From the NCBI RefSeq assembly GCF_001049755.1, contig NZ_CVLB01000003.1:248001-312000 (forward strand): a stretch of DNA of 64,000 nucleotides, given 5' to 3'. A program made the position numbers and the translations under genes. The notes beneath the pieces are model-generated. The model made no database searches, was not told the origin of the DNA, and saw nothing but the letters and a program-made list of their open reading frames with translations. Positions 56,737 to 58,504 of the stretch are shown here, one piece after another. The stretch's first letter is position 1. Each line of letters starts with the position of its first letter. The DNA comes from Brachyspira suanatina. Lineage in GTDB: Bacteria; Spirochaetota; Brachyspiria; Brachyspirales; Brachyspiraceae.

Positions 56737-56765
56737 TTGACAAAATTGATACTAAATAATAAAAT
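56737..56765 (+). promoter_or_regulatory. promoter of the structured RNA locus
   Basis: TTGACA (56737-56742), 17-base spacer, TAAAAT (56760-56765). It would start transcription about 56772, exactly where the first stem begins. Confidence 0.75.
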
Positions 56766-56772
56766 AAAAAGC

Positions 56773-56834
56773 AGATCCCAACAGCAAAATAATATAAATC
56801 CATAAAGACTGGGTTAAATGGAATCTAGTTTTTT
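56773..56834 (+). ncRNA. small structured RNA element, first of a tandem pair
   Basis: AGATCCC (56773-56779) pairs with GGAATCT (56820-56826), one mismatch, and TCTAGTTTTTT follows. Within it, TCCAT (56799-56803) and ATGGA (56818-56822) can also pair as an alternative. AACAGCAA follows the first stem arm, as in the second element. The two share this sequence and the same TCTAGTTTTTTA ending, so they are probably related RNAs. Confidence 0.5.
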
Positions 56835-56854
56835 ATTTTGAAATAATATTTTTT

Positions 56855-56943
56855 AGACACGAACAGCAATTTAATGAAGTTGGTCATAAGAAGGTTCAAA
56901 TCCTTTAGCCATTTTTAATGGTGTATATCGTGTCTAGTTTTTT
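56855..56943 (+). ncRNA. tRNA-like (Y-RNA-like) small RNA upstream of the Ro60-like gene
   Basis: AGACACGA (56855-56862) closes with TCGTGTCT (56928-56935) and a T-run follows (56938-56943). Inside lie a D-arm-like hairpin ATGA-AGTTGG-TCAT (56874-56887), a T-arm-like hairpin GAAGG-TTCAAAT-CCTTT (56890-56906) and a third GCCAT-TTTTA-ATGGT (56908-56922). T-loop TTCAAAT and D-loop GG are the classic tRNA tertiary contacts, but no anticodon arm exists. Bacterial YrlA-type Y RNAs carry such a tRNA-like module and are encoded next to Ro60 homologues, as here. Confidence 0.6.
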
Positions 56944-56944
56944 A

Positions 56945-56984
56945 ATTCTATGCTTATATATTTAATAGGCATAGAATATTTTTT
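56945..56984 (+). terminator. terminator/attenuator directly before the Ro60-like gene
   Basis: ATTCTATGC (56945-56953) pairs with GCATAGAAT (56969-56977) and TTTTTT follows. The start codon is only 21 bases beyond, with AGGAGA between. Expression of the gene must therefore come through this hairpin. Confidence 0.75.
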
Positions 56985-57004
56985 ATTATAGGAGAATTAA
57001 TTTT

Positions 57005-58504
57005 ATGTCTTTTTTAGATTTGCTTAAAAATTCTTTTAATAAAACTTATACACAGAATTTTGCTGATACTAATATTTCATCATTAAGCAGTGTAATAGAT
57101 TTATTTGCCACTATGGGAGCAAGCAGATTAAAAGAAGATGATGAATTATTAAAATATTTTATAGATGCTTGGAGAGAAAGTCCTGAACTTACAGCTAAAT
57201 CTATAATGTATTTAAGAGATATAAGAAACGGCATCGGTGAGAGAGAAGTTTTCAGAAAATATATTAATATTATGATTAAACAAAATCATACTCTCACTGC
57301 AATAGAAATTTTAAAAACTATACCAGAGCTTGGAAGATGGGACGATATTATTTATATATGGTATGATAATAGAGAAAATAAAAATATTTCTGACTTTACA
57401 AAAAATATAATATTAGAGCAATTAGAAAAAGATAAAACTACTGATAATGTTTCGCTTCTTGCTAAATGGCTTCCTAGTGAAAATACTTCATCAAAAAATA
57501 CAAGAAGCATTGCAAGAGAATTAATAAAACTTTTAAATATAAACACTAAAGAATATAGAAAAACTTTATCTACTTTAAGAAAGAAAATAAAAATAATAGA
57601 AAATAATTTAAGAGAAAAAGATTATACATTTAATTATTCTTCAGTTCCTTCGCTTGCTATGAGAAAATACTCAAAAGCATTTATTAGAAATGATGAAGAA
57701 AGATATAATAATTTTTTTGAAGATGTAAAGTCAGGAAAAGTAAAATTAAATACAAGCGTCTTAACTCCTTTTGATGTTATAAGAGAGATTTTAGACTGTG
57801 CCGAAGAAGATATAGATTCAAGAAAAGAAGAATTTGATTTAACTTGGAAAAATCTTCCAAATATTTTTGGAGATAATAATTTAAATGCAATAGTTGCATG
57901 CGATGTATCTGGAAGTATGGGAATGGTTTTGAATGGTGAGCCTTTAATATGTTCTGTGGCTTTGGGAATATATATAGCGCAATTAAATAAATCTGCATTT
58001 CATAATCATTTTATAGATTTCTGCGGCAATTCTAAAATGCATGACATATCAAATATAGATAATATTGTTGATATAGTTAATTATGTTTTAAGATCATCTG
58101 TTGATTACAGTACAAATATAGATTCGGTATTTAAAGTGTTGCTTGATACTGCTGTAAAAAATCATGTACCTAATGAAGAACTTCCTAAATATATAATAAT
58201 AATTTCTGATATGGAATTTAATCAATGCGAATTGAAAAATAAAACTAATTTTGAATATTGGAGAGCAATATTTACTGAAAATAATTATAAGCTTCCTAGA
58301 ATAATTTTCTGGAATGTAAACTCATTAAGCAGAATAATGCCTGCTTTAAAAAATGATGATGTATTATTTGTTTCTGGAAGAAGTCAGAATGTTATAAAAA
58401 ATATAATCAATATAGACAAATACGATTTAACAAATCAAGATGAAATATCAATGCTTTTAATACTTGATACTTTGAAAGATTATAGTATTGATATAAAGGA
58501 TTAA
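57005..58504 (+). CDS. Ro60/TROVE-like protein (DUF2828 type) with vWA domain
   Basis: This 499-residue protein has an all-helical N-terminal part (MSFLDLLKNSFNKTYTQNFA; YLRDIRNGIGEREVFRKYI; LLAKWLPSENTSSK; PSLAMRKYSKAFIRN), the DUF2828/TROVE-like opening. A C-terminal von Willebrand A domain has an intact metal site: D300-V-S302-G-S304 in ACDVSGSMG, and IIISDMEFNQ. This two-domain plan is that of Ro60, a ring that binds misfolded RNA and Y RNAs. The adjacent tRNA-like RNA supports an RNA-quality-control role; DUF2828 itself has no proven function that I know of. Confidence 0.85.
   Translation: MSFLDLLKNSFNKTYTQNFADTNISSLSSVIDLFATMGASRLKEDDELLKYFIDAWRESPELTAKSIMYLRDIRNGIGEREVFRKYINIMIKQNHTLTAIEILKTIPELGRWDDIIYIWYDNRENKNISDFTKNIILEQLEKDKTTDNVSLLAKWLPSENTSSKNTRSIARELIKLLNINTKEYRKTLSTLRKKIKIIENNLREKDYTFNYSSVPSLAMRKYSKAFIRNDEERYNNFFEDVKSGKVKLNTSVLTPFDVIREILDCAEEDIDSRKEEFDLTWKNLPNIFGDNNLNAIVACDVSGSMGMVLNGEPLICSVALGIYIAQLNKSAFHNHFIDFCGNSKMHDISNIDNIVDIVNYVLRSSVDYSTNIDSVFKVLLDTAVKNHVPNEELPKYIIIISDMEFNQCELKNKTNFEYWRAIFTENNYKLPRIIFWNVNSLSRIMPALKNDDVLFVSGRSQNVIKNIINIDKYDLTNQDEISMLLILDTLKDYSIDIKD

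Follow-up and report, generated by a model that had tools for sequence, protein, structure and literature searches.

The locus described here raises the question of whether an uncharacterized DUF2828 gene of Brachyspira suanatina encodes a relative of Ro60, and whether the DNA ahead of it encodes dedicated RNA partners of that protein. In the bacterial Ro systems, the closing stem of the Y RNA YrlA binds the ring of the Ro protein Rsr, and its tRNA-like module faces other factors (PMC8394870). An initial annotation, made from the sequence alone, had suggested that a tRNA mimic resembling Y RNA adjoins a Ro60-like gene in the window, i.e., the whole 64,000-nt stretch of DNA that was analyzed. 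This proposal is now supported by comparison of protein folds and by the presence of structured RNAs at most of the sampled DUF2828 genes across phyla and phages. The features of the locus are collected in Table 1.

Table 1. Features of the DUF2828 locus, numbered from the first nucleotide of the window
Feature	Position	Strand	Basis
Sigma-70-type promoter, TTGACA-17-TAAAAT	56737..56765	+	11/12 consensus positions; kept in relatives
RNA A, short Y-RNA-like element	56773..56834	+	Sequence, relatives, fold of a relative's copy
RNA B, tRNA-like Y-RNA-like element	56855..56943	+	Sequence, folding, genus distribution, covariance model
ACAGCAA signature motif just inside RNA B closing stem	56863..56869	+	Highest-ranked strand-specific heptamer ahead of DUF2828 genes
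T-arm-like hairpin of RNA B, GAAGG-TTCAAAT-CCTTT	56890..56906	+	Sequence; loop fits tRNA T-loop consensus TTCRANY
Third hairpin of RNA B, GCCATTTTTAATGGT (GCCATT...AATGGT)	56908..56922	+	Almost invariant in the genus, hence no covariation to test it
Intrinsic terminator between RNA array and gene	56945..56977	+	13-bp stem, then T-run
DUF2828/DUF7788 protein gene	57005..58504	+	Pfam, PHROG 850, AlphaFold2 model, fold searches, invariant columns

Two RNA elements lie between a promoter and a terminator

On the + strand, the locus reads promoter, RNA A, RNA B, terminator and DUF2828 gene. The -10 box, TAAAAT here, is TATAAT in several relatives, and RNA A starts about 7 nt past the promoter. One terminator was found at its position as compared to 0.0 expected in shuffles. 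An AGGAG at 56990 precedes the ATG of the gene, which is separated from the T-run of RNA B by 61 nt. Both RNAs are built alike: a closing stem whose 5′ arm is followed immediately by ACAGCAA, then a variable interior, the 3′ arm and TAGTTTTTT.

The closing stem of RNA B pairs AGACACGA (56855-56862) with TCGTGTCT (56928-56935) over 8 bp, and the T-run occupies positions 56938-56943. Its folding beats 200 out of 200 dinucleotide shuffles (z -2.97). The initial annotation had described RNA B with a closing stem, a D-arm-like hairpin, a T-arm, a third hairpin and a U-run, all of which held except that the D-arm-like hairpin is weak, comprising about three A-U pairs in the B. suanatina window and being slightly better in relatives. 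It covered RNA B only, missing RNA A although this element lies at the start of the very interval it addressed. In RNA A, ACAGCAA (56781-56787) adjoins a closing stem formed by 56773-56780 and 56819-56826, and a U-run follows at 56829-56834. This stem carries one mismatch here (AGATCCC); most relatives have a perfect stem with a pairing T (AGATTCC), and a relative's copy folds with a z of -3.05.

Of 26 Brachyspira genomes, 15 have an orthologue of the DUF2828 gene, and one more (G024) holds merely a 38%-identical relative. RNA B occurs in 15/15 of the genomes that have the orthologue and in 0/11 of the others (Fisher p 1.3e-7, uncorrected for shared ancestry), twice in each of two genomes (G002 and G015), and RNA A sits ahead of it in nearly all Brachyspira loci. 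Conservation of the stems in relatives held, with pairing kept in 97.9% of cells for RNA B overall and in 93.3% for its T-arm-like stem. The search for compensatory changes within the genus gained little, only one pair being changed on both sides; RNA B sequences vary too little among Brachyspira for a covariation test to be informative.

No tRNA is predicted at 56855-56943 by ARAGORN or by Rfam, and Rfam searches near the locus at E values up to 10 returned chance families only. A blastn search of the locus against phages gave no matches, so RNA B is akin to the phage copies described below in plan and motif only.

Several irregular loci were seen in the genus. In G021 (L014, L017), the DUF2828 gene is broken by stop codons while RNA B is retained, which could reflect either decay or an assembly error. 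The 38%-identical gene of G024, on contig 107 (L016), has its own promoter and an ACAGCAA hairpin; this contig might stem from contamination or from transfer. Pieces of a DUF2828 gene's 3′ end, found directly upstream of the array (L008-L011) or elsewhere (G005 contig 14), are probably remnants of a duplicated copy.

The DUF2828 protein is predicted to adopt a Ro60-type fold

Pfam recognizes DUF2828 and DUF7788 in the window protein but not TROVE (PF05731; no match at E up to 1), and none of the 26 Brachyspira genomes holds a TROVE gene. The protein is assigned to PHROG 850, annotated as 'RNA-binding protein', and is matched by 680 phage records, e.g., gp54 of mycobacteriophage Moostard. Single-sequence structure prediction was poor (pLDDT 41), and we instead used an AlphaFold2 model built with 50 homologues (mean pLDDT 92.9, pTM 0.90).

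The 13 best Foldseek matches of this model in the PDB are all Ro60/TROVE structures. A second aligner matched it to Xenopus Ro (1YVR) over nearly the whole length (Z 24.2, rmsd 4.2, 427 residues aligned) and to Ro with RNA (1YVP) with a Z of 24.1, compared to 12.4 for Deinococcus Rsr and at most 11.3 for proteins that are vWA only. The MIDAS residues of the vWA domain (D300, S302, S304, T370 and D402) are invariant across the 50 sequences. Aligned with hhalign, the DUF2828 and TROVE profiles match with 97.0% probability (E 8.1e-11), but most of the 243 aligned columns fall in the vWA half. In the ring, resemblance to TROVE at the sequence level is only slight, and the protein is about 11% identical to Ro60. 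PDB matches obtained by sequence search (FliS, STAT3) were discarded as chance hits.

We thus predict, on the strength of the model, that DUF2828/DUF7788 forms a Ro60-type helical ring closed by a vWA domain and lies outside the TROVE model. It is treated here as a Ro60-fold relative rather than a TROVE member because the fold matches and PF05731 does not. The suggestion that this family is linked to RNA binding, also made in the initial annotation, is supported by the Ro60 fold; binding itself remains an inference.

A strand-specific RNA signature accompanies DUF2828 genes

Homologues were gathered from bacterial genomes and viral contigs by protein similarity alone, with TROVE proteins collected likewise as controls; removal of near-duplicates left 126 DUF2828 and 65 TROVE loci. 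The DUF2828 sample consists of the best-scoring matches rather than a random draw, so percentages apply to the closer members of the family.

ACAGCAA with a closing stem was found upstream in 91/124 DUF2828 regions, but in 0/124 on the other strand and in 0/64 TROVE upstream regions. When all heptamers were ranked without prior choice, ACAGCAA came first for DUF2828 (93 loci versus 2 on the opposite strand) and TTACTTC for TROVE (57 loci versus 0); the T-loop word GGTTCGA was enriched at both (DUF2828, 45 versus 2; TROVE, 24 versus 0). On either side of the gene, ACAGCAA elements were present at 98/126 DUF2828 loci, compared to 3 on the reverse strand and 1/65 TROVE loci. Relaxing the motif by one letter at either end gave 110/126, 8 and 5/65, respectively, leaving 16/126 DUF2828 loci without an element even so.

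At the level of single sites, 205/225 of the ACAGCAA occurrences ahead of DUF2828 genes are enclosed by a stem, and none on the other strand is. The stem register of the 206 elements was chosen by pairing, and exchange of 3′ halves between loci served as the fair control; swapped halves formed stems in 16.7% of cases versus the 206/226 observed. These 206 elements are spread over 92 loci, with one to five per locus and a median length of 72 nt, and comprise 143 different 5′ arms with matching 3′ arms, several pair types occurring at every stem position. We correct the initial annotation in one respect: the shared signature is the closing stem plus ACAGCAA, with a T-arm in only a minority of elements (32/206).

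At the majority of the other loci, the element closest to the gene stops about 50 nt short of the start codon. Downstream elements exist in 16 of the 34 loci that lack upstream ones, and copies in Mycobacterium phages, Moostard included, and in Escherichia phages are located downstream of the gene. Phage DUF2828 genes and their RNAs are often found among tRNA genes. In a Bacillus phage (L022:440-2409) and a Felix O1-type phage (L197:3722-4365), ACAGCAA elements are interspersed with tRNA genes beyond the neighborhood of the DUF2828 gene.

The RNA signature at TROVE loci differs, being GTTACTTC rather than ACAGCAA. Among the TROVE loci (L221-L300, L201-L203), phage TROVE upstream regions share the strand-specific GTTACTTC together with tRNA-like hairpins.

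tRNA mimicry and covariation outside Brachyspira

The 32 elements with a T-arm, many of which enclose an entire cloverleaf, compare to 0.06 expected after shuffling. Among them, a D-arm candidate precedes the T-arm in 18, follows it in 2 and is found on both sides in 1. Fifteen clostridial copies of ~96 nt align as a closing stem with ACAGCAA followed by D, anticodon and T arms. In these, double changes affect 14 of the 26 pairs, and the number of double-changed cells, 42, exceeds the 13.9 ± 3.4 of shuffled alignments, with 0/500 shuffles reaching it. The strong evidence from covariation thus comes from outside Brachyspira, not from within the genus. Only the tRNA model of Rfam matches copies of the clostridial type (34-51 bits). 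ARAGORN calls tRNAs on elements at L064:1871-1946 (Ile), L066:1949-2018 (Phe), L073:2384-2455 (Met) and L079:2379-2452 (Phe); public annotations may accordingly list some ACAGCAA RNAs as tRNAs.

A covariance model, R1, was built from the clostridial cloverleaf copies without any Brachyspira sequence. It matches RNA B at 56854-56936 over the full model length with matching ends (33.4 bits, E 1.8e-5 over 631 kb). The match is supportive but not decisive alone, because ordinary tRNAs of the same genome score similarly and RNA B no higher; the other R1 matches that were checked proved to be true tRNAs, and they lack ACAGCAA. In addition, the R1 alignment places the T-arm-like hairpin of RNA B at the position of the anticodon arm, and we regard the exact correspondence to tRNA as unsettled.

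Some bacterial DUF2828 genes neighbor RtcB

The RNA ligase RtcB neighbors 34/126 DUF2828 loci. By neighbor clustering, its 33 loci are all bacterial. In the majority RtcB lies downstream in the same orientation, and about 30 loci have genes from families of WYL-like regulators on the upstream side. Pfam clearly supports RtcB; of three upstream proteins scanned, one passed the WYL cut-off, another fell just short of it with matches to WYL and WCX, and the third was unmatched. The RtcB-adjoining loci are L053, L064, L066, L078, L093, L097 and about 28 other bacterial ones, often downstream of WYL-like genes. In Brachyspira, no RtcB gene was found near the DUF2828 gene; it is encoded elsewhere in the genome, in 14/15 genomes with the DUF2828 gene versus 4/11 without (p 0.003, uncorrected for ancestry).

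A Salmonella operon unites rsr, Y RNAs and rtcBA (PMC7790460; see also PMC8394870). The DUF2828-RtcB-WYL grouping may represent an RNA-repair operon distinct from rsr-rtcBA, and this context looks like an arrangement that runs parallel to rsr-yrlBA-rtcBA of Salmonella.

Alternative explanations

One alternative is that the hairpins are a cis-acting 5′ leader controlling the DUF2828 gene, the protein, for example, binding the leader and altering read-through of the 56945-56977 terminator, with no role for a free RNA. The position of the Brachyspira hairpins between promoter and terminator, and the proximity of the nearest element to the start codon in most other loci, would fit. Nevertheless, we consider this reading unlikely: there are as many as five copies per locus, phages of Mycobacterium and Escherichia carry copies past the gene, as do 16 of the 34 loci with none upstream, others are scattered through phage tRNA arrays, and a leader has no need for tRNA-like cloverleaves.

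Also unlikely is that RNA B is a strict member of the described YrlA, or TROVE-linked, Y RNA family. The plan is alike, with a closing stem, a tRNA-like module and a neighboring gene for a Ro60-fold protein. YrlA has the order T-arm, hairpin, D-arm, and a few DUF2828-linked RNAs (L089, L178) are ordered in this way. Against this, TROVE-linked loci carry GTTACTTC instead of ACAGCAA, and all 26 Brachyspira genomes lack a TROVE gene. The Rfam YrlA model (RF02553) does not match RNA B either, but it also misses TROVE-adjacent RNAs and was hence dropped as a discriminator. The likeness to YrlA seen in the initial annotation is therefore no ground for filing RNA B as YrlA.

A type III toxin-antitoxin-like pair, in which the RNA array would neutralize a toxic protein encoded past the terminator, seems very unlikely. 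The layout of promoter, repeated RNAs, terminator and gene does match such systems, and overproduction of mycobacteriophage LeBron's Ro-like protein has toxic effects (PMC13148394). However, the predicted fold is that of Ro60 and not a known RNase toxin fold of the ToxN type, RNA copies may lie downstream of the gene and contain tRNA mimics, and the RtcB neighbors point to repair.

Decayed tRNA genes or DNA-level inverted repeats such as mobile-element ends, without any RNA function, can be all but excluded: tRNA-like pieces and inverted repeats do exist and ARAGORN calls some copies tRNAs, but closing stems differ in sequence between copies yet remain paired, the motif is strand-specific, presence tracks the gene exactly in Brachyspira, and the checked R1 matches at other sites of the same genome are true tRNAs that lack ACAGCAA.

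Relation to known systems

The DUF2828 loci resemble the bacterial systems of Ro60 (Rsr) and YrlA-type Y RNAs known from Deinococcus and from the rsr-yrlBA-rtcBA operon of Salmonella in combining a Ro60-fold protein with adjoining small RNAs that have an end-to-end closing stem, in the tRNA-like module of some of these RNAs, and in having RtcB beside many family members. They differ in that the window protein belongs to Pfam DUF2828/DUF7788 and not TROVE, in their RNA signature (ACAGCAA versus GTTACTTC), in the mostly normal tRNA order of their cloverleaves, and in the WYL-like regulators, and not RtcR, seen at the bacterial loci. Compared to tRNA (RF00005), the clostridial ~96-nt copies share the D, anticodon and T arms but are closed by the ACAGCAA stem and have no acceptor stem of their own.

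The initial annotation held that neither a YrlA-like RNA nor a Ro60 homologue had been described for this spirochaete group or for DUF2828 proteins, which is only partly true for the latter. The window protein belongs to the same family as phage proteins labeled 'Ro-like RNA binding protein' (SEA-PHAGES; PHROG 850), a label that annotators have already given to mycobacteriophage members. Unlike the RNAs adjoining the genes here, no RNA partner of these phage proteins is mentioned in the literature searched, in which DUF2828 by name turns up in four plant studies only. Chen et al. (2014) reportedly described Y RNAs located close to Ro60 from more than 250 species of bacteria and phages. The DUF2828-linked RNAs may thus be new as RNA partners, though only provisionally so in view of possible overlap with Chen et al. 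(2014) and with Burroughs and Aravind (2016).

A putative RNA-care particle

The computational results establish a predicted fold for the protein and show the RNA elements to be conserved, to covary across phyla and to be specifically linked to the gene. The explanation we favor is that RNA A and RNA B are dedicated Y-RNA-like partners of the Ro60-type DUF2828 protein in an RNA-care particle. We consider this likely, with transcription, binding and function being inferred.

According to this proposal, the one promoter directly upstream would drive transcription of both RNAs. The DUF2828 protein would be an RNA-binding ring on which RNA A and RNA B act like bacterial Y RNAs, their closing stem and ACAGCAA being the likely protein-binding handle; this binding mode is proposed by analogy with Rsr and YrlA (PMC8394870). 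RNA A would be a simple occupant of the ring and RNA B would present the tRNA mimic, whose interior, imitating part of a tRNA, may compete with or recruit tRNA-handling factors. The particle would most likely function in the quality control or repair of RNA that has been damaged, especially tRNA, a role we propose because of the fold, the tRNA mimicry and the linkage to RtcB. In the absence of transcript, binding or phenotype data, transcription of the RNAs, protein binding via the ACAGCAA stem and the action in RNA care are all inferences.

A bolder reading, which we merely regard as possible, is that of a second Ro60/Y-RNA-type system apart from TROVE/YrlA, with an RNA-recognition code of its own, in which the varied anticodon loops of full cloverleaf decoys bait or sense nucleases that cut tRNA, both in RNA repair and in conflict between phages and bacteria.

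Bacterial relatives of Ro60 have been implicated in triggering Ro60 autoimmunity (reviewed in PMC11277228). Further Ro60-fold proteins in gut bacteria may be relevant here, though identity to Ro60 is only ~11% and any cross-reaction is hypothetical. The closing stem with ACAGCAA is a brief RNA signature, easily checked, which annotation pipelines overlook or report as a tRNA. An uncharacterized family with 680 phage records and members in many gut bacteria gains a predicted fold, a probable partner RNA and a role in RNA care that can be put to the test.
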